Assembly (NCBI GenBank): GCA_008501635.1
Contig: QQUJ01000023.1
Span: 62,001 to 126,000 of the forward strand
DNA: 64,000 nt
Source of the DNA: Pseudomonadota bacterium
Lineage (GTDB): Bacteria; Pseudomonadota; Gammaproteobacteria; QQUJ01
Direction: 5' to 3'
Shown: positions 32,708-53,640 of the stretch, one piece after another
Position numbering within the stretch: position 1 is the stretch's first letter
Layout of the letters: each line of letters opens with the position of its first letter
Made by a program: the position numbers and the translations under genes
The notes under the pieces: generated by a model
What the model saw: the letters and a program-made list of their open reading frames with translations, nothing else
What the model was told of the DNA's origin: nothing
Database searches by the model: none

Positions 32708-33721
32708 TCAGCGACCGAACTTCTCTTTCCAGGTCTTCTTGATCTCTGTCTGCGCTTTCGCGGAGGCGGCAAAATCGATCTTTGCCAGCGCACCGCTCAG
32801 ATCCGCCGGCAGACCCGCCTTTTCCGCCGCTGCCGACGGCTTGACGCCCGGCACGGTGATCAGAGCCTTGAAAGCACCGTACAGGTCCGTTGCATCCTTG
32901 GAAAGCGTCCAGTCGAGAAACCGCTTGGCGTCGCCTTTGTTCTTGCTGGACACCATCAGCGCCGAGGCCTCCAGCTCGTAGCCGGCACCGCCCTTGGGAA
33001 TCACCATTTTCAGCGGATAGCCGCTTTCGATGGACTTCAGCGCCGTAAAGGCCAGCGAGGCTCCGACGGTGTATTCCCCGGCGCGTGCCGCCTTGCACGG
33101 CTTGGAACCCGACGAGGTGTACTGCGCCATGTTGGGATCGACGGCGGCCAGCTGTGCCCAACCCTGCTCCTCGCCCATGCCCTGGAGCAGCGAGATCACG
33201 TGCAGGTAACCGGTACCGGAAGAGTTGGGATCAGGCATCAGCACCTCGCCTTTGAAGCGCGGATCGGCCAGATCCTGCCAGCTGGTCGGCATGGGCAGCC
33301 CTTTCTGCGCCAGCCTTTCGGTGTTGACGCAGAACGCCCCCATGTACCCGGTGGGCGCGAACCAGCGCCCCTGCTGATCGCGATGGGCGGCGTTGAGCTT
33401 ATCCGCTCCCTTTGCCGCATAGGGTTCGAGCATCGCCAGGATGCGCGGATCCATCATCGCGGTAACCGCCCAGCCCCAGATCACGTCGGCCTGCGGATTC
33501 TCCGCTTCCGCCAGTATCCGTGCTCCCAGCTTGCCAGTGGATAGACGCAGCACATTTACCTTGATATCGGGCATCGCCTTGCTGGCGGCAGCAATATAGT
33601 CGGCGATCTCCTCTTCTTCGAGGGCCGTGTAGACCGTGATTTCACCGGCATGCGCCACTGTGGAGCCAACAAGGCAAACCGCAGCAGCCATAAGCGATAA
33701 CAGCCAATTGGAATTTTTCAT
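32708..33721 (-). CDS. ABC transporter substrate-binding protein (putative 2-aminoethylphosphonate or phosphorylated-compound binding)
   Basis: 337 residues. ATG with AGGAGGA upstream, a signal peptide (LLSLMAAAVCLVGSTVAHA), then GEITVYTALEEEEIADYI, which is the N-terminus of the family 1/8 iron- and phosphonate-type periplasmic proteins. NPQADVIWGWAVTAMM and YMGAFCVNTERLAQKGLP with PTSWQDLADPRFKGEVLMPDP follow the same fold, and the C-terminus is KKTWKEKFGR. The family includes iron(III), AEP and hexose-phosphate binders. Lack of the iron-binding tyrosine pair could not be confirmed by eye. It is the first gene of the four-gene operon. Confidence 0.9.
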   Translation of the reverse strand: MKNSNWLLSLMAAAVCLVGSTVAHAGEITVYTALEEEEIADYIAAASKAMPDIKVNVLRLSTGKLGARILAEAENPQADVIWGWAVTAMMDPRILAMLEPYAAKGADKLNAAHRDQQGRWFAPTGYMGAFCVNTERLAQKGLPMPTSWQDLADPRFKGEVLMPDPNSSGTGYLHVISLLQGMGEEQGWAQLAAVDPNMAQYTSSGSKPCKAARAGEYTVGASLAFTALKSIESGYPLKMVIPKGGAGYELEASALMVSSKNKGDAKRFLDWTLSKDATDLYGAFKALITVPGVKPSAAAEKAGLPADLSGALAKIDFAASAKAQTEIKKTWKEKFGR

Positions 33722-33803
33722 TGTGTCCTCCTGAGAGGTGGGTTCAGGCTCCCTGGACCTGAGGGGGGTGAGATTCCACGAACGGTTGGCACCTTGCCTC
33801 GAA

Positions 33804-33823
33804 TGTGGAATATTGTGGATTAT
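33804..33823. promoter_or_regulatory. Candidate operator: tandem 10-base repeat TGTGGAATAT/TGTGGATTAT
   Basis: In the 165-base region between the divergent binding-protein and phosphatase genes, TGTGGAATAT is directly followed by TGTGGATTAT, one helical turn apart, within an AT-rich tract (to about 33840) in otherwise GC-rich DNA. The position, upstream of an operon encoding its own DeoR-type regulator, makes it a plausible regulator site controlling both directions. This is inference from position only. Confidence 0.4.
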
Positions 33824-33886
33824 TGCATTTTTATGGTTGTTGTCTAGGGTGTCAGAAGAAGTGCAGCGAAAGGCGATCGGCCATCC

Positions 33887-34705
33887 ATGAGCCCCCAGGA
33901 CACGGATAGCAACCCTGCCGGGGCCGCCCCGGAGCCCGAACTGATCCGGTTCGCAGAAGACCTCGCGGATGCCGCCCGGCCGGTGGCGTTGCGCTATTTC
34001 CGCAATCCCCTGGAGGTGGAGCACAAAGCCGACGCATCGCCGGTTACCATTGCCGATCGGACGGTCGAATCGACCATGCGCGAGATGATCACCGCCCGCT
34101 ACCCGCACCACGGCATCCTCGGTGAGGAACATGGCGGGAGCAACTTGGAGGGTGCGGAAACCTGGGTGCTGGATCCCATCGATGGCACCCAGAGCTTCAT
34201 CACCGGCATGCCGACTTTCGGCACCCTGATCGCCCTGCTGCAACATGGCCGGCCGGTGATCGGCATCGTCGACATGCCGGCCCTGGGCGAGCGTTGGGCG
34301 GGGGCATCGAGCCGGGCGACCACGCTGAACGGGCGGCCCTGTCGCACGCGCGCCTGCCGTGAACTCCGCCAGGCCAGCGTCTACGCCACTTCGGTCGACA
34401 TCTTCACCCCCGAGGAACTCGATGCGCTGAACACCGTCACCGCCCGCGCCGCCCTGCGCCGCTTCGGCGGTGACTGCTACAGCTACGCGCTGCTTGCTGC
34501 GGGATACGTGGACGCCGTGATGGAGTCCTCCCTGAAACCCTACGATTACCTTCCCCTGGTGCCCATCATCGAAGGCGCAGGCGGTGTGATAACGGACTGG
34601 ACGGGGGCAGCGCTGCATCTGCGTTCCGACGGGCGCGTGATAGCCGCGGCCACTCCGGAACTGCACGCAGAGCTACTCTCGACGCTACCCGAAGCGTTCA
34701 GATAA
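33887..34705 (+). CDS. Inositol-monophosphatase-family phosphatase (HisN-like)
   Basis: 272 residues with the lithium-sensitive phosphatase motifs: GILGEEHGG (metal-binding Glu pair), WVLDPIDGTQSFITGMPTFG (DPIDGT) and PYDYLPLVPIIEGAGGVITDW (second motif with Asp). Members hydrolyse inositol, histidinol, nucleotide 3'-phosphate or fructose-1,6-bisphosphate esters. The early LRYFRNPLEVEHKADASPVT resembles HisN-type histidinol-phosphatases. It is divergent from an ABC operon that carries a DeoR-type regulator, so it may dephosphorylate the imported compound rather than serve histidine synthesis. Confidence 0.88.
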   Translation: MSPQDTDSNPAGAAPEPELIRFAEDLADAARPVALRYFRNPLEVEHKADASPVTIADRTVESTMREMITARYPHHGILGEEHGGSNLEGAETWVLDPIDGTQSFITGMPTFGTLIALLQHGRPVIGIVDMPALGERWAGASSRATTLNGRPCRTRACRELRQASVYATSVDIFTPEELDALNTVTARAALRRFGGDCYSYALLAAGYVDAVMESSLKPYDYLPLVPIIEGAGGVITDWTGAALHLRSDGRVIAAATPELHAELLSTLPEAFR

Positions 34706-35221: not shown

Positions 35222-37834
35222 ATGCTTTCCACGTTACGAAGCCGCTTCCGGCGTGTCGTGTTTGTCGCGTGCGCGGTACTGGCCGGAACCGCGCCGCACC
35301 ATGCCGCGGCGAGTGTGGTGTTCGGAAGCGACCGCGACTACCCTCCCTTTGAGTACCTCGACAGCGATGGCATACCCCGTGGTTTCAATGTCGATCTGAT
35401 CCGCGCCGTTGGCGAGGCGGGCGGCTTTGAGATCGCCATAAAACTCGGGCCCTGGGCGGAGATCCGCCGCGCCTTTGAGACCGAAAAAACCGTCCATATC
35501 GCCGACATGACCCGCTCGCGCGAACGCGAGATACGCCTCGATTTCGCCACACCGTTCGCCATCATCACTGACCAGCTTTTTGCGCGCAAAGGCGAGAGCG
35601 CTCGCTGCGACCCCGCCAGACTCGACGGCACGCGCGTACTGGTTCAGGACAGCGCCAGCACGCAAGAGTATCTTGCCACGCGCTTCCCTGGCGTGATCAC
35701 GCTGCCCGTTCCCTCGGCACCCGATGCAATCCGGCAGCTGCAGGCCGGCAACGGTGACTGCGCGATTGTCACCAACCTGATCAGTCAGTATCTGATCACC
35801 CGCCAGCAGATCAGGAACGTGGTCCCGGTCGGTCGCCCCTTCATGCCCCGCGAATACGGTTTTGCCGTCCTCAAGGGCAATACGGCGCTGCTTGACCGGG
35901 TCAACAGCGGACTCAAGAAGGTGCTCGAATCCGGTGAATACGCAACCATTTATCAGAAGTGGTTTACGCCGAAACGTGTCACACCGCGAACCGCGGGCGA
36001 GCTTGTCCGCGATGCACTGCCGATTGCCGGGCCCATCGCCGCGGCTCTGCTCCTGACCGGTTTCTGGGTCATCTCTCTGCGTCGCCTGGTGCGCTCGCGC
36101 ACCTTTGATCTACGGGAAGAGCTGGCGCGCCGTGAAACCGCGGAACAGGAGGCTCGCACCAGCCACGAGCAGTTCAATCAACTGGCGAACAATGTCGATG
36201 AGGTGCTGTGGATCAAGGATCAGCGCAGCGGCGCCAAGCTTTATGTGAGTCCCGCCTACGAGCGGATCTGGGAACTGTCCCGTGAAGACCTCTACCGCGA
36301 TCCGCTCGATTTCCTGCGCCGGGTCCATCCCGAGGATTACGATCGCGTCAAGGTCGCGCAGGCCAGCCGTCCGACCGAACACTATAACGAGGAGTATCGC
36401 ATCGTCAGACCGGATGGTTCGCTGCGCTGGGTTGTCTCGCGCGGCTATCCCATATGCGACGAGCAGGGCGAGCCCTATCAGATGGTCGGCATCACGCGCG
36501 ATATTACCGAGCGCAAGATGGCCGAAGAGCGCATCGAGTGGCTGGCAACCCGCGATGCGCTGACCGAACTGCCCAACCGCTATCTGCTCGGCGATCGTCT
36601 CAAACAATCGATCGCCCACGCCCAGCGCGAAGAGTTGCGCCTCGCGGTACTGTTTATCGACCTCGATCGATTCAAACGCATCAACGATTCGTTGGGACAC
36701 ACCGTGGGCGACGAGCTGCTGCGGGAAGTCGCTACGCGTTTGAACAAAGGTCTGCGTGCCGACGATTCGTTGGCGCGCATCGGCGGCGACGAGTTTGTGC
36801 TGGTGCTGCGCGGCATCCAAGAAGCCGAGGAGATACTGCCGGTCGTTACCAAGATCATCAGCTCACTCGCACAACCCTTTGCCATCGACGCCCATCAGCT
36901 CAACATCTCCTGCAGCGTGGGGATCAGCATTTTCCCCGACGACGCGACCACCAGCGCGGAGCTGCTGCGTTGCGCCGATACCGCCATGTACCACGCCAAA
37001 ACCAAGGGTCGAAACGACTTCTGTTTCTACGCCGCGGAGATGAACAGTCTGGCTGTCGAACGTTTGCGTCTGGAGGGCGAACTGCGTCGGGCGCTGGCGG
37101 ACAATGAGTTCGAACTCTTCTACCAACCCATCGTCGCCGTGAGCAGTGGCCAGATCGTCGCCTGCGAGGCCCTGATCCGCTGGCGTCATCCGGTGCGCGG
37201 CATGGTGGCGCCCGATCGCTTTATCGAGGTGGCCGAGGAGATGGGACTGATCCCGCGCATCGGTGCCTGGGTTATCGAAAGCGCCTGCCTGCAACGCAAG
37301 CGTTGGTCCCGGTTGGGGTATCCGCTGCGCATGTGCGTCAACGTCTCGGCGCTGCAACTCAACCCCGGGTTATTGAAGACGATTTCGGACCTCGATTGCC
37401 CAATGACACCCGAAAGTCCCTGGTTGGAACTGGAACTGACCGAAAGCGTTCTGATCGAGAACCGCGAAGAGAACATCGAGTTGCTGCGCGAACTCAAGGC
37501 GCTGGGCGTCTCGCTTTCCATCGACGATTTCGGAACCGGGTACTCCTCGCTGAGTTATCTCAAAGGTTTCCCAGTTGAGACACTGAAGATCGACCGCAGT
37601 TTTATTGCCGACCTGGAGAGTGATGAGGGCAGCCTCGCCATCATCAACGCGGTGGCGAGCATCGCCAAGACGCTGAATCTGCGATTGATCGCCGAGGGCG
37701 TGGAGAACGAAGCGCAATTGGTTCAGGTGCGCCGCACCGGCTGCGACGAGTACCAGGGCTATCTGTTTCAACGCCCCTTGCCCGCCGAGGAACTGAGCGC
37801 TCTACTGCAGGCGCAACAGCCGGTCAGACATTGA
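35222..37834 (+). CDS. Periplasmic-binding-domain / PAS / GGDEF / EAL cyclic-di-GMP protein
   Basis: 870 residues, start at MLSTLRSR behind AAGGAAGTAAGG. A signal sequence precedes a SBP_bac_3-type periplasmic sensor (about 30-255, [17 protein letters not shown]). A membrane segment lies near 266-288, a PAS domain near 315-435, then GGDEF (intact GGDEF at 521-525 with RADD inhibitory site five residues before) and EAL (CEALIRW with EAL at 649-651, and [17 protein letters not shown]). Both synthase and phosphodiesterase sites look intact, so direction of activity is undetermined. The periplasmic domain resembles amino-acid-binding proteins, suggesting an external polar amino acid as signal. 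Its 3' end overlaps ychF convergently by 11 bases. Confidence 0.92.
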
Positions 37835-38918
37835 AGCGGAAGTGGATGACATCGCCGTCCTGGACGATGTACTCCTTGCCCTCCAGGCGCCATTTACCCG
37901 CCTCTTTGGCCCCTTGTTCGCCTCGGCAGGCAATGAAATCATCGTAGGCGATCACTTCGGCGCGGATAAAACCCTTCTGAAAATCGGTGTGGATCACCGC
38001 GGCCGCCTCGGGCGCCGTGGCGCCGATGCGAACGGTCCAGGCGCGCACCTCCTTCTCGCCCGCGGTGAAATAGGTCTGCAACCCCAGCAGGCGATAACCC
38101 ACGTGCACCACGCGATCCAACCCGGCTTCCTCAAGACCCATTTCGGCGAGAAACTCCGCCTTGTCGGCCTCTTCGAGTTGCGCGATCTCGGCCTCCATCG
38201 CGGCGCAGAACGGCACCACTTCGGAACCGTCGGTAGCGGCGATTGCGAACACGGCATCGAGGTGAGGATTGTTCTCGAATCCGTCCTCGGTCACGTTGGC
38301 GAGGTACATCGTCGGTTTGATCGTCAGGAAATGGAGATCGCGGATCAGCAGGAGTTGCTCTTTGGACAGCTCCATGGCCCGCACCGGACGGCCTTCGTTC
38401 AAGTGTGCCTCGATCTTGATCAACAGCTCCCGGCGTGCGATGGCTTCTTTATCACCGCCCGCCTTGGTCGCCTTGCGTGCGCGCTCGACCGCCTTCTCCA
38501 CGGTCGCAAGATCGGCCAATGCCAGCTCCGTATTGATCACCTCGATATCCGAGGCCGGATTGATACGACCGGAGACATGCGTCACATCATCGTCCTCGAA
38601 GCAACGCACCACATGAGCGATGGCGTCAGTCTCGCGGATATTGGCCAGGAACTGGTTGCCCAACCCCTCACCCTTTGAAGCACCTGCCACCAGACCGGCG
38701 ATATCGACAAACTGCATGGTGGTGGGAACCACTCGCTGCGGCTTGACGATTGCCGCCAACGCGTCCTGGCGCGCATCGCGCAACGGCACCACCCCCACGT
38801 TGGGTTCAATGGTGCAGAACGGGTAGTTCTCGGCCGCGATGGCGGCCCTGGTGAGCGCGTTGAACAGTGTGGATTTACCCACGTTGGGCAATCCAACGAT
38901 GCCGCATCTGAATCCCAT
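37824..38918 (-). CDS. ychF: Ribosome-binding ATPase YchF (Obg family)
   Basis: 364 residues, the usual length. P-loop [17 protein letters not shown] at the N-terminus, G2/G3 region [13 protein letters not shown] and [17 protein letters not shown], and a C-terminal TGS domain ending [11 protein letters not shown]. The NxxE-type specificity motif (YLANVTEDG) is characteristic of YchF, which prefers ATP to GTP. It binds ribosomes and is a conserved negative regulator of oxidative-stress responses. It stands divergent from the membrane methyltransferase-like gene at 38999 and is not followed by pth here, as it often is in other genomes. Confidence 0.96.
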
Positions 38919-38998: not shown

Positions 38999-39685
38999 AT
39001 GGTCCTGGACATGGAACTCACCGCACTTCAGATAATCGTCCTGATACTCGCCTGGGCAGGCTATGGGCTGCTGCATTCACTGCTGGCGACCCTCGCTCTC
39101 AAGCGCCGGGCTGCCAGCCGCTGGCCATGGGCACCGCGTGTTTACCGCCTGGCCTTCAATGGCCTCGCCGTCGTTCTGCTCGCACCGCCGCTCTATCTCA
39201 TGCATCGCTGGCAGGGGACTCCGCTCTGGCAATGGACCGGCGTGAGCTTGTGGGTTGCCAACTCCCTGGCCGTCCTTGCTTTGGTCGGCTTTGTATTGAC
39301 ATTGAAAGACTATGACACCGCGGAGTTTCTGGGCACCCGGCAATGGCGCGGTTCTGAACGACGGGTCGAGGATCAGGAAAGCTTGCACATATCGCATCTT
39401 CACCGCTATGTGCGCCACCCCTGGTACTTTCTGGCATTGGTACTTATCTGGACGCGCCAGATGGATGGCGCATTCCTGGTCAGTGCGCTCTGCATCACCG
39501 CGTACTTCATCGTTGGCTCCCGATTCGAGGAGCACAAGCTGATCCAATACCACGGCGATGCTTACCGGGAATATATGCAACGAGTACCCGGCATAGTGCC
39601 CATGCCAGGCCGGTTTTTGTCAACGCGGGAAGCCAGAATTCTGACAAAAAAATACCGGGACACATCGGGCCCCGGTACCGAGTAA
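38999..39685 (+). CDS. Isoprenylcysteine-methyltransferase/NnrU-like integral membrane protein
   Basis: About 228 residues from MVLDMELTALQ; MELTALQ four codons later is an alternative start and neither has a strong ribosome binding site. There are about six membrane segments. The C-terminal half contains HLHRYVRHPWYFLALVLIW and FEEHKLIQYHGDAYREYMQRVPGIVP, the RHPxY and E-x-x-L-x-x-x-x-G-x-x-Y-x-x-Y motifs of the ICMT/PEMT-like membrane methyltransferases (phospholipid- or isoprenyl-methylating). SAM binding is therefore likely; the substrate is unknown. Confidence 0.8.
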   Translation: MVLDMELTALQIIVLILAWAGYGLLHSLLATLALKRRAASRWPWAPRVYRLAFNGLAVVLLAPPLYLMHRWQGTPLWQWTGVSLWVANSLAVLALVGFVLTLKDYDTAEFLGTRQWRGSERRVEDQESLHISHLHRYVRHPWYFLALVLIWTRQMDGAFLVSALCITAYFIVGSRFEEHKLIQYHGDAYREYMQRVPGIVPMPGRFLSTREARILTKKYRDTSGPGTE

Positions 39686-39781: not shown

Positions 39782-39847
39782 TTAAACGATAAAAATCAGG
39801 TTGCTGACCACAACCGCTACGACTGTGACCACGAACAGTTTGAACAT
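39782..39847 (-). CDS. Putative 21-residue single-pass membrane protein
   Basis: On the minus strand a GCGGAGGAAG Shine-Dalgarno lies two bases before the ATG of a 21-codon frame reading M-F-K-L-F then almost uninterrupted Val/Thr/Ala to a hydrophobic end (V-S-N-L-I-F-I-V) and TAA. One lysine followed by about 17 hydrophobic residues is the form of small membrane proteins that modulate larger complexes. An AT-rich tract with possible promoter elements lies upstream. It lies alone between two genes in a stretch of about 480 bases, so it could be a free-standing small protein. I know no family for it. Confidence 0.55.
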   Translation of the reverse strand: MFKLFVVTVVAVVVSNLIFIV

Positions 39848-39922
39848 CACTTCCTCCGCAAGCCGTAAACTACTTTTGGTTTAATTAGGTAACTATCGGC
39901 ACGCGGCGGATTCCCTTCCACC

Positions 39923-39950
39923 AACTGCATCCCATTACGGGGTTGCAGTT
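39923..39950. repeat. Stem-loop upstream of the small membrane ORF
   Basis: AACTGCATCCC and GGGGTTGCAGTT pair with one mismatch around ATTAC. It is within the gene-free stretch 39686-40162. On the minus strand it lies upstream of the small ORF and downstream of the DUF484-GGDEF cyclase gene, so it could be a terminator lacking a T-tract or a leader structure. The rest of the stretch shows only a short GCTGCC/GGCAGC hairpin near 39986. Confidence 0.45.
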
Positions 39951-40162
39951 ACATAGTCGTCGTGATGCGAACGGCGCGACTCCATGCTGCCTGGGGGCAG
40001 CCTCCCTGGTTTTATTGTAATACCCCTACTTGAGTACATATTATTTGCAGGTAACGCGCGACGCTACCCGTTGACGTTTGAGTTGTCAACCCCTTTTTCA
40101 ACGCTGTGCCGACTGACCGTGGTAAAAACCACTGCGGCTTTGCGCCATGCTTACACCGCGCA

Positions 40163-41257
40163 TCAGACGGCAACGCTCGCTCTCACTACTCGATTGCGCC
40201 CCCCATCCTTGGCCTCGTACAACGCGTTGTCCGCGGTCTCAATCAGTTTCTGTCCCAGCATTTGCGGAAGCGGATCGCCGTCCGCCACACCGGCAACCCC
40301 TATGGAAAGGGTAACCCGAAACGGATCATGATCCGGATGGTTGAAGGTCTCCTGTTCCACGGCGGAGCGTATCCGTTCGGCAATGATTACCGCCTCCTCC
40401 GTCGCCGTGCCCGGCAAAACCGCGACGAACTCCTCACCTCCGTAACGGGCCAGAATGTCGACGTTACGAAGATGCGCTTTGATGATCCTGGCCACACCCT
40501 GCAGCACATAGTCGCCCACGGTATGCCCGTAAGTGTCGTTGACTCGTTTGAAGTGATCGATATCGAGAAAAAGACACGCCAATGCATGGTGTTCCCGTTC
40601 CACCCTGCGCAGCTCTTCTTCGTATCGCTGATCGAAATAGCGGCGGTTCGCAACCGAGGTGAGGGTATCGGTCAACCCCACCAGTTTAAGTCGTTCATGG
40701 TTCAGCGCGTTCTCCAGACAAACCGCAACCACTGCGCCAAAATGCGCCAGAAAATCGGTGAAGTGAGTGCCCCGATAGCGATCGACATCTTCGCTGCCGA
40801 GGTTGATGCTGCCGATTATCCTCCCATCGCGCACCAGCGGCAGCAGCGCGGTACTTCGCGGTTGCCGCAGTGGCGAAGGAAACAATCGAGCGGACAACTC
40901 GGGTGCGCAACCACTCAAGGCAGGTTCGCGCTTTTCGTTGAACAAGGCTTCGATAACCTCGGCCACGTCGACGAACAGCAACTGCGGAAGTTCTGCGGGC
41001 TTGACGCCCAGATGTTGAAGCAAATGGCGAATCTCGTGATCGCCGTCCAACAATACCAGAGTGATGACCTCGAGCTTGAATTTGACACGCGTCTCATGCA
41101 CCAGCATCAACAATAATTCGTAGAGCGAATTGATGCCGAGAAGCCGCAACTCCTGCGCCTGAAAACGTCGCATGCGCTCTTCATTCTCTTCGGCCCAGCG
41201 CATCAGCACTTTAAGCCTTCTATGCAGAGCGCGATTTTCCGCTTCCAGATCCTTCAT
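40163..41257 (-). CDS. DUF484-GGDEF diguanylate cyclase
   Basis: 364 residues, start at MKDLEAENRAL; a TTG six codons upstream is possible. The N-terminal coiled coil and GAF-like DUF484 domain (about 1-195) contain LYELLLMLVHETRVKF and IGSINLGSEDVDRY. The GGDEF domain has DTLTSVANRRYFDQRYEEEL, FLDIDHFKRVND and an intact GGEEF, with RNVD five residues before it (RxxD inhibitory site). There is no membrane segment, so it is a soluble cytoplasmic cyclase. The combination of DUF484 with GGDEF is common in gammaproteobacteria. The neighbour upstream is the Lon-family protease; the 130-base gap implies separate control. Confidence 0.9.
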   Translation of the reverse strand: MKDLEAENRALHRRLKVLMRWAEENEERMRRFQAQELRLLGINSLYELLLMLVHETRVKFKLEVITLVLLDGDHEIRHLLQHLGVKPAELPQLLFVDVAEVIEALFNEKREPALSGCAPELSARLFPSPLRQPRSTALLPLVRDGRIIGSINLGSEDVDRYRGTHFTDFLAHFGAVVAVCLENALNHERLKLVGLTDTLTSVANRRYFDQRYEEELRRVEREHHALACLFLDIDHFKRVNDTYGHTVGDYVLQGVARIIKAHLRNVDILARYGGEEFVAVLPGTATEEAVIIAERIRSAVEQETFNHPDHDPFRVTLSIGVAGVADGDPLPQMLGQKLIETADNALYEAKDGGRNRVVRASVAV

Positions 41258-41387
41258 CTTTGTGATCTCGCGCAATCTGTGTCCCCGGCAACGGCAGGCA
41301 AGTCCCGCGCTATCGCCCGCTCAACTTTGCGCAACCGCCGCAGGCGAACGTGACCCAGCCATCGCTGTTCCAGTTTCCTCGGTTGCA

Positions 41388-51177: not shown

Positions 51178-53640
51178 GTGTTACGCCGTCTGCTCGTCAG
51201 CTATCGGATCGTGCTGTGCCTGACCACCCTCGTGGTGGTCCTGGCCACCTATGCCGCGCCGGTACAGCAGATCGAGCAGTGGGCGTTGCGTCTCGCCATG
51301 TCATTGGTACCGGTGGCCCCGGTCAGCCAGCGAGTCACCGTAGCCACCGTCGACAGCGAGGCCATCCAACGATTTGGCCCCTGGCCCTGGCCGCGTGATC
51401 GCATCGCCTCGGTGGTCGACCAGCTGCACAAGCTGGGTGCCCGCACCATCGGCCTGGCCTTCCCGCTTGCCGAACCGCAGACACCGGCCCGCCTGCCCGA
51501 ATATCAGGAACAAGCCGTCGGCCTGCCCAAAGACGCACGCGACCGGGTACGTGACTGGCTGCGCCGGCTCGATACCGATCGCATCCTGGCGCAATCGCTG
51601 CAGCGCGCGGGAACGGTCGTGCTGGGCGCGGATCGCGGGGTTCCGGGCCAGCGGCACGAGGCGCTCAGTTGGCCGCTGAAACCCGCCGGTGCCGGAGGGC
51701 TTCCTGGCGCACTCGCACCCCTGATGGCGGCGCCCAGCGCCAAGGCGCCGCCCGATCGCCTGCCGTTGCCCGAGTTCAACCAGGCGGCCGCCGGCATCGG
51801 ACATCTGGAAACCATGAGTGACAGCACGCCTACCGGATCACGCCTCGCCTGGCGCGAAGGCGAGCGATTGATCCCCTCCTTCGCCCTGCGGGTGGCGATG
51901 AACGGTCTTGCCTTTCGCGAAGCCGATTTGACGCTCCTCCCCAACGGCCGTCTGCAATTGGGGCGGAATCCGGTAACGACCGCCACCGACTGGGTGGCCT
52001 ACCCCCCGCCTGCCGAGGCGCGCAACGGGCAAAGCGCGGTTGAAGAGGTCCCGATCATGTCGCTCTGGACCCGCAGCGATGCCTCGCGCTCGGTGCGTAA
52101 CCGGGTGGTGCTGTTCGGCCCCGTGGCGCCGGAATCGGTGGCGCCGGTGACCGCACCCGGCGGCTATCAGCTGGCGCCGGTACTGTGGCAGGCGCACACC
52201 GTGGCCGCGTTGCTGAACCGTTCGGCGCTGGATGTGCCGGCCTGGTTCCACGGTTCCCAGCGCGGCCTGTTGCTGGGAATACTCCTTTATCTCGTGCTGC
52301 TGCCGGCGCGCTGGCATGGGCGTATCGGGTTGCTGATCGGGGGCGTCGGCACCCTGGTCCTGCTCAACTCCGGTGTGCTGGTTCTGGTAACGCAGGGACA
52401 GTGGCTGCCGGTGACGATCCCCAGTCTCTTTCTGCTCGGCGGTCAGGCCGCGCTCTTCTCCAACCAGCGCCACGCCTCCCGCCTTACCGCGATGCAGCGA
52501 CGCACCAGTGATGCGCTGCGCACTCTGGCCGAAAACCTGATGAATCAGGGCAGGCTGGATCTCGCCTACGAACGCCTTTGCCAATGCCCGCCGGGAAGGG
52601 AGACTCTCGAACCGTTCTACCATCTCGCTCTTGAGTTCGAGCGCCGGCGCCAGTTCAGCAAGGCGCTCGCTTCCTATGACCGGATTTCTGAGATTGACCC
52701 GGCCTACCGCGATGTGGAGAGCCGTCGTCAACGTTTCCGCACCGTCACCCACCATGCATCGCTGACGGGAACCAGCGGCAGCAATGCCACCACGGTGGTG
52801 ATGGTCAACGACCCCACCATCGAACGCCCGGTGATCGGCCGCTATCACATCGAGTGCGAACTGGGACGAGGCGCCATGGGTGTGGTCTACCGCGGCGTCG
52901 ATCCCAAGATCGGCCGCAAAGTGGCCATCAAGTGCCTCGCCTTCACCGAGGAGTTCGAGGGTCATGAACTCGAGGATATCCAACGCCGCTTCCATCGCGA
53001 GGCCGAGGCTGCCGGCAGGCTCGATCATCCCAACGTGGTCACCGTCTACGATGTCGGCGAGGAGCACGATCTGGCCTACATCGCCATGGACTATGTGGAG
53101 GGCAGCAGCCTCGAGGCCTACACCCATCCCGACCACCTGCTGCCGGTCGAGGAGGCGCTGGAGGTTATCGCCCAGGTGGCGGAAGCGCTCGATTATGCCC
53201 ATAGCCGCAATGTGGTCCATCGCGATATCAAACCCGGCAACATCATCTACAACCGTGACACCGGTGTTTTGAAGGTGACCGATTTCGGCATCGCCCGCCT
53301 CACCGACGAAAGCAAGACCAAATCGGGCTCGATTCTCGGCAGCCCGGCCTATATGTCGCCCGAGCAGGTGGCGGGCAAGAAAGTGGACGGGCGCTCGGAT
53401 CTGTTCTCGCTCGGCTCCACTCTCTATCAGCTGCTGACCGGCGAGCTGCCGTTCACGGGCGACTCCGTGACCAACGTGCTCTATCGCATCCTCAACGAAA
53501 AACCCAAAGCCGTAACGCGCCTGCGCCCGGAACTCTCCACGGGTTTGAGCCGCCTGGTAAGCCGTACGCTGAACAAGGATCCGAAGAAACGCTACCAGAG
53601 CGGTGCCGCACTGGCCGAGGCGCTGCGCCGCTGCATCTGA
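51178..53640 (+). CDS. CHASE2-domain receptor serine/threonine kinase
   Basis: 820 residues from a GTG. An N-terminal membrane segment (about 5-27) and an extracytoplasmic CHASE2 domain (about 30-355, starting VTVATVDSEAIQRFGPWPWPR) are followed by three membrane helices (363-425). A TPR-like linker (about 440-520, LDLAYERLCQCPPGRETLEPF and ALASYDRISEIDPAYRDVES) leads to an eukaryotic-type kinase domain: glycine loop LGRGAMGVVYRG near 562, VAIK Lys near 584, HRDIKPGN near 681, DFG near 702 and SPAYMSPEQ. Kinase residues are intact. Sensor-first, kinase-last order is the reverse of PknB-type receptors. An FHA protein follows, separated by 361 bases. Confidence 0.9.
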   Translation: MLRRLLVSYRIVLCLTTLVVVLATYAAPVQQIEQWALRLAMSLVPVAPVSQRVTVATVDSEAIQRFGPWPWPRDRIASVVDQLHKLGARTIGLAFPLAEPQTPARLPEYQEQAVGLPKDARDRVRDWLRRLDTDRILAQSLQRAGTVVLGADRGVPGQRHEALSWPLKPAGAGGLPGALAPLMAAPSAKAPPDRLPLPEFNQAAAGIGHLETMSDSTPTGSRLAWREGERLIPSFALRVAMNGLAFREADLTLLPNGRLQLGRNPVTTATDWVAYPPPAEARNGQSAVEEVPIMSLWTRSDASRSVRNRVVLFGPVAPESVAPVTAPGGYQLAPVLWQAHTVAALLNRSALDVPAWFHGSQRGLLLGILLYLVLLPARWHGRIGLLIGGVGTLVLLNSGVLVLVTQGQWLPVTIPSLFLLGGQAALFSNQRHASRLTAMQRRTSDALRTLAENLMNQGRLDLAYERLCQCPPGRETLEPFYHLALEFERRRQFSKALASYDRISEIDPAYRDVESRRQRFRTVTHHASLTGTSGSNATTVVMVNDPTIERPVIGRYHIECELGRGAMGVVYRGVDPKIGRKVAIKCLAFTEEFEGHELEDIQRRFHREAEAAGRLDHPNVVTVYDVGEEHDLAYIAMDYVEGSSLEAYTHPDHLLPVEEALEVIAQVAEALDYAHSRNVVHRDIKPGNIIYNRDTGVLKVTDFGIARLTDESKTKSGSILGSPAYMSPEQVAGKKVDGRSDLFSLGSTLYQLLTGELPFTGDSVTNVLYRILNEKPKAVTRLRPELSTGLSRLVSRTLNKDPKKRYQSGAALAEALRRCI

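Follow-up and report, generated by a model that had tools for sequence, protein, structure and literature searches.

Introduction

The locus considered here raises the question of whether a very short hydrophobic open reading frame (ORF), lying on the minus strand between larger genes at positions 39782-39847 of the window (the whole stretch of 64,000 nucleotides that was analysed), is a real gene, and, if it is one, what kind of product it specifies and what that product is likely to do. The frame has 21 codons, which is below the length accepted by standard gene finders, and a gene of this size is therefore likely to be missed. Such a frame can be evaluated if the question of its reality is separated from the question of its function, and the evidence for each is presented separately below. 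The analysis indicates that synteny combined with codon-level tests can validate so short an ORF from a single distant homologue, and, if the tentative reading given in the Discussion is correct, it adds to the known small membrane proteins a further family of tiny membrane peptides, new and as yet without a name, for which tagging could reveal the partner.

Results

The open reading frame and its setting

The ORF begins with an ATG at 39847, ends with a TAA whose last base is at 39782, and encodes the peptide MFKLFVVTVVAVVVSNLIFIV. The original prediction placed this hydrophobic 21-residue frame at the correct coordinates and left the strand, which is minus, unstated; the strong Shine-Dalgarno sequence that it described ahead of the ATG is also present, as GGAGGAAG at 39850-39857 of the minus strand, separated from the start codon by the two bases TG, so that its core GGAGG ends 5 nt before the ATG. 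An in-frame GTG lies immediately 5' of the ATG and would, as an alternative start, give a product beginning MMFKLF. The peptide likewise has the composition that was ascribed to it, a single lysine and hydrophobic residues up to the stop: K3 is the only lysine, and the other non-hydrophobic residues are only T8, S15 and N16. The best 15-residue mean hydropathy is 2.79, and a single transmembrane helix is predicted, which places the peptide, on size and hydropathy, among the small membrane proteins of fewer than 50 amino acids that consist essentially of one hydrophobic helix. The plus strand over the same positions reads LNDKNQVADHNRYDCDHEQFEH, and its frame is polar and unremarkable.

The intergenic setting is real. 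Upstream on the same strand, a gene for a protein with DUF484/GAF-like and GGDEF domains, a putative diguanylate cyclase (40163-41275, minus), has its stop at 40163, 315 nt from the ORF, while the convergent gene for a membrane protein of the DUF1295/MddA-like methyltransferase family (39014-39685, plus; longest ORF from 38939) has its stop at 39685, 96 nt from the stop of the ORF. The gene for the YchF GTPase (37824-38918, minus) is divergent from the DUF1295 gene, and a LonB-like protease is also encoded in the neighbourhood. No transporter or oxidase operon adjoins the ORF among the immediate neighbours scanned. Two other proteins of the window are noted: a 652-aa protein at 32708-34666, in which a match to the extracellular solute-binding families SBP_bac_6/SBP_bac_1 covers only the second half and the first half matches nothing in Pfam at E up to 1e-10, and an 820-aa protein at 51178-53640, which combines a CHASE2 domain with a serine/threonine protein kinase domain.

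The rate at which frames of this kind arise by chance was estimated within the genome itself, using as criteria an ATG start, a length of 15-35 aa, a 15-residue mean hydropathy of at least 2.4, a match of at least five of six bases to AGGAGG, and a position outside large ORFs. The 424,554 bases examined (the window and 20 further stretches, which together make up roughly a tenth of a genome of 3.93 Mb) include 54,827 bases outside large ORFs, and in these the ORF encoding MFKLFVVTVVAVVVSNLIFIV is the only one that qualifies. Thirty first-order random sequences with the same dinucleotide make-up, each 50,891 bases long to equal the summed non-genic segments of at least 80 nt, contained a mean of 0.03 such ORFs and a maximum of one. 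No second copy of the peptide was found in the window's genome at E up to 0.5.

A homologue in the same slot of a second genome

A counterpart was found in a genome designated G060, which is labelled 'same class' and was on that basis taken as belonging to another order of the class. In a 275-nt gap, it runs for 22 codons from an ATG to a stop (L023, 1501-1569) and encodes MVKLFLFTIAAVVISNMIWIGF. The match shows 60% identity over residues 1-20, the peptides being 57% identical overall, and its E-value of 0.012 across the 369 class genomes sampled is not convincing if it is taken by itself. It becomes convincing because of its place among the same neighbour genes: the G060 peptide occupies the same slot, 199 nt after a GGDEF gene and tail-to-tail with a DUF1295 gene that is followed by a divergent ychF, with all orientations equal, and the corresponding neighbour proteins of the two genomes are 47% (GGDEF), about 48% (DUF1295) and 72% (YchF) identical. 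The description of the ORF as isolated holds for the window's genome, but in G060, the one other genome that has the peptide, the gene occupies a defined syntenic slot.

Over 20 aligned codons the residue is kept in 12, seven of the codons being identical and five differing silently (K, T, V, N and I), and the eight replacements are mostly exchanges among V, I, L, M, F and W; the differences fall at the first, second and third codon positions in the numbers 6, 2 and 7. When the same 15 substitutions were placed at random on the window's DNA, equal protein similarity was obtained in 96 of 200,000 trials. The alignment score of 63 was reached by none of 15,858 dinucleotide shuffles of the 275-nt intergenic region of G060 (maximum 25) and by none of 500,000 shuffles of the window peptide (maximum 55), and the match therefore goes beyond generic, shared hydrophobicity. 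The similarity of the DNA fades on either side of the ORF. G060 has a weaker Shine-Dalgarno sequence, GGGGAT, some 9 nt ahead of its ATG.

These observations bear on two alternatives. The first is a non-coding element of DNA or RNA that has been conserved and is open in this frame by accident. It would account for the DNA identity of 75% over 60 nt (15 differences) and for the antisense frame, which in the same codon phase is open too and resembles its counterpart fairly closely (a score of 55, against 63 for the sense frame). That similarity is expected, however, because of the shared codon phase, and the sense frame scores highest; the placement of the substitutions favours a protein; the conservation coincides with the start and the stop of the ORF; and no Rfam family matches at its gathering score, three weak matches being to unrelated families. 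The antisense frame of G060 has no start codon from its upstream stop to the end of the conserved stretch, and antisense coding was dropped on this ground. A non-coding element is accordingly judged very unlikely. The second alternative, a chance ORF, can appeal to the length of only 21 codons and to the small number of genomes that carry the peptide, but it is so strongly disfavoured by the syntenic homologue and by the shuffle, random-sequence and substitution controls that it is scarcely credible.

The original prediction named a lack of frame conservation as grounds for its refutation, and the check came out in favour of a genuine small gene that behaves like those of single-helix membrane proteins, since the syntenic homologue of G060 keeps the frame, with silent changes. 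The syntenic homologue and the substitution tests, applied to two sequences only, point to selection at the protein level. Since the tests on the homologue (codon changes, shuffles, placement of substitutions and the fall-off of DNA similarity) agree, the ORF is very probably a real gene as judged from its sequence, and it is presumably translated.

Spread of the peptide and of the locus

The peptide was seen in two of the 369 class genomes sampled, the window's own and G060. With the window peptide as the query, four genomes of this sample gave matches at E up to 10, the other two being G225 and G128, whose weak matches were rejected because they are not short start-to-stop ORFs. Among 56 relatives, of which the 55 besides the window's own genome are all labelled 'same class', only the own match was returned at E up to 10. 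The order of G060, represented by one genome, returned only G060 itself. Genome sets that partly overlap were searched with a two-row profile. Matches were obtained in 34 of 93 relatives of G060 at E up to 10, with only G060 above noise; in six of 368 genomes of its class at E up to 0.05, only G060 being real; in neither of two genomes of the order of a further genome, G086; in none of 50 genomes reached through 50 of the 80 loci of DUF1295 relatives described below; and in 26 of 259 genomes of a phylum sample at E up to 0.5, with only the window's own above noise and the next match (E 0.005) lying in a 320-aa frame. The translations read around 11 weak matches from the relatives and class of G060 and around five from the phylum sample led to the rejection of all of them, the best-looking (L123) being a 20-aa frame that overlaps an apparently real gene in another frame; the other weak matches were judged on E-value and frame length only. 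No homologue was found in plasmids and phages by tblastn, and none of 71 pattern matches in viral contigs was confirmed. Relatives much more divergent than that of G060 would be missed by queries this short.

The neighbour genes were followed in the same way. Neither the peptide nor the synteny was found at the best 80 of 138 loci of DUF1295 relatives. Among 30 GGDEF loci the peptide is present in the window's own only, the flanks covered at the 29 others reaching in most cases some 0.9-1 kb beyond the gene, and less far in two cut loci. Among 30 YchF loci the peptide is again present in the window's own only, and DUF1295 stands beside YchF only there and in G086. Forty further YchF upstream regions from the next-ranked matches, a set that leaves out G285 (YchF at the contig end) and G060 (already known), contain neither DUF1295 nor the peptide; over the 30 and 40 YchF loci and G060, the DUF1295-YchF pair is thus confined to the window's genome, G060 and G086. 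The peptide is absent from all 80 loci of DUF1295 relatives and from the other 29 GGDEF loci examined, and is therefore tied to a rare locus and not to any one neighbour.

In G086 the place of the peptide is taken by an unrelated small ORF of about 60 aa (L199, 4249-4441; beginning MMNYQTKVLRVVAALILWG), which adjoins the DUF1295 gene convergently and whose product has an N-terminus resembling a signal sequence and, after it, another hydrophobic stretch. The same strand encodes, upstream of this ORF, a 178-aa protein with CxxCH-like motifs, which are typical of c-type cytochromes.

In another possible reading, the ORF is the 3' cistron of a GGDEF operon, and its product would act at the membrane to adjust the activity of that c-di-GMP enzyme or of the enzyme's targets. 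The ORF does lie directly downstream of the GGDEF gene on the same strand in both genomes, at the distances given above, but the 29 other genomes with a GGDEF relative lack the peptide in the flanks examined, a strong hairpin lies in the long stretch that separates the two genes, and the GGDEF protein shows only domains of soluble type (DUF484/GAF and GGDEF), with nothing that would account for a membrane peptide. This reading is considered distinctly improbable.

Signals around the ORF

About 100 nt past the stop of the ORF, within the 3' part of the coding sequence of the convergent DUF1295 gene, the minus strand contains a hairpin of 11 pairs followed by a T run (39651-39679; fold z -3.1), which resembles an intrinsic terminator. 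Between the GGDEF gene and the ORF lies a strong, near-perfect inverted repeat, AACTGCATCCC-6 nt-GGGTTGCAGTT (39923-39950; fold z -3.28), which has a T run on neither side and no evident conserved counterpart in G060; it is a possible operator or RNA hairpin. At 40022-40036 the sequence ACCCCTACTTGAGTA, with the palindromic core TACTTGAGTA, stands beside a -10-like hexamer, TACAAT, on the minus strand. The proposal that TACTTGAGTA is a shared operator was dropped, the 424,554 bases scanned containing one other exact copy.

The main rival of the accessory-helix reading developed in the Discussion holds that the product is a hydrophobic peptide resembling the type I toxins (the Ibs/TimP/DinQ kind), which would depolarise the membrane when made and whose synthesis an antisense RNA transcribed from the plus strand would keep in check. 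The length, the one N-terminal lysine and the hydrophobic run do resemble those of IbsC and similar peptides (PMC8309996), terminator-like hairpins of the plus strand at 39991-40009 and 40070-40090 could end an antisense RNA, and the Shine-Dalgarno sequence can pair with the leader. That pairing, however, is no more stable than in shuffled sequences (z -1.28) and has no counterpart in G060, and a hairpin that hides the Shine-Dalgarno sequence was dropped from consideration for these reasons. From the DUF1295 gene to the first of its hairpins the plus strand shows no site resembling a promoter, and neither Pfam nor PADLOC gives a match to a toxin family of the Ibs kind. The peptide is present as a single copy in the window's genome, and its sequence is kept across orders at one fixed locus, the polar residues T8, S15 and N16 included, whereas for type I toxins a lack of sequence conservation is stressed in PMC8309996. 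A toxin is on this evidence unlikely, although it has a better claim than the alternatives above.

Discussion

The proposed role as an accessory helix

The explanation preferred here, and considered on balance probable, is that the ORF is a real, translated gene for a 21-residue single helix of the inner membrane which is accessory to, or regulates, a larger membrane protein encoded elsewhere. The computed results that bear on it are that, at the corresponding locus of a second order, the frame and the start are conserved and the length is almost unchanged. With a lysine at position 3 and hydrophobic residues to its end, the peptide is long enough for one crossing of the membrane, and by the positive-inside rule K3 and the N-terminus would lie in the cytoplasm and the C-terminus outside. 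The conserved residues T8, A11, S15 and N16 would be placed within the helix, where they may pack against the larger membrane protein. These polar and small residues give only a hint of contact with another helix, because the test showed no significant conservation of one helix face (p 0.14; with graded similarity, p 0.76). The gene probably has its own short transcript or is transcribed following the GGDEF gene, and transcription would probably end at the hairpin at 39651-39679.

Several findings count against this explanation: the searches yielded no more than two members, those of the window's genome and G060; neither neighbour keeps the peptide in the other genomes examined; the Shine-Dalgarno sequence of G060 is the weaker one; the helix-face test was not significant; and the domains of the GGDEF neighbour offer no explanation for a membrane peptide. 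It is proposed more tentatively that the two peptides represent a new family of single-helix membrane subunits or regulators of 21-22 aa, acting on a membrane complex in which no such subunit has been recognised so far. The family may, with similar reservation, have a fixed place, flanked by a GGDEF gene on one side and a DUF1295-ychF pair on the other, in two or more deep lineages of a single class.

Comparison with known small membrane proteins

The original prediction likened the peptide to KdpF, CydX and AcrZ, and this tie found no support: no Pfam, NCBIfam, PHROG or PADLOC family, no PDB chain and no adjoining operon of such a kind was found. In Pfam, PHROG and PADLOC the two members had either no family above the cut-off or no match at all (E up to 10), and the only Pfam match of either at E up to 10 was to DUF4223, at 0.23, which is below its cut-off. 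No NCBIfam family matches the window peptide, which alone was used as the query there, no PDB chain matches the two-row profile, and a search of the open-licence part of PubMed Central for three pieces of the two peptides found no paper. No CydAB, KdpABC or AcrB gene occurs among the immediate neighbours or among 20 other proteins of the window, although AcrZ need not adjoin its partner. In these searches, MFKLFVVTVVAVVVSNLIFIV could not be recognised as KdpF, CydX, AcrZ or a toxin of the Ibs kind.

KdpF is a small single-helix accessory protein of a membrane transporter. AcrZ, of 49 aa, is likewise such a protein (PMC10903887), and the reading proposed for MFKLFVVTVVAVVVSNLIFIV is similar, but the peptide has no match to either in Pfam or NCBIfam, and no kdp or acr gene lies beside the ORF. 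CydX, like CydY and CydZ a small subunit of cytochrome bd oxidase, shares with MFKLFVVTVVAVVVSNLIFIV a very small size and a structure of essentially one transmembrane helix. It is described in PMC4325964 as having its N-terminus in the cytosol and its C-terminus outside, as carrying a conserved tryptophan near the N-terminus, and as being encoded in cydAB operons; CydX has 37 aa, whereas MFKLFVVTVVAVVVSNLIFIV has 21, and lacks such a tryptophan, a cyd neighbour and a family match. The IbsC-like type I toxins are also hydrophobic, helix-forming peptides of about 20 residues, IbsC itself having 19 and being toxic when overexpressed (PMC8309996), but MFKLFVVTVVAVVVSNLIFIV differs from them in being a single-copy sequence conserved across orders at one locus. 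YohP, a membrane protein of 27 residues with essentially one transmembrane domain, is similar in general form, and MFKLFVVTVVAVVVSNLIFIV is set apart from stress-related small membrane proteins of this type by the missing family match, the comparison with YohP being by description only. According to PMC10903887, each prokaryote has many small membrane proteins, some of them encoded in intergenic regions of annotated chromosomes, and in the light of that account the kind of protein to which MFKLFVVTVVAVVVSNLIFIV would belong is already known, while MFKLFVVTVVAVVVSNLIFIV itself would represent a new family of that kind.
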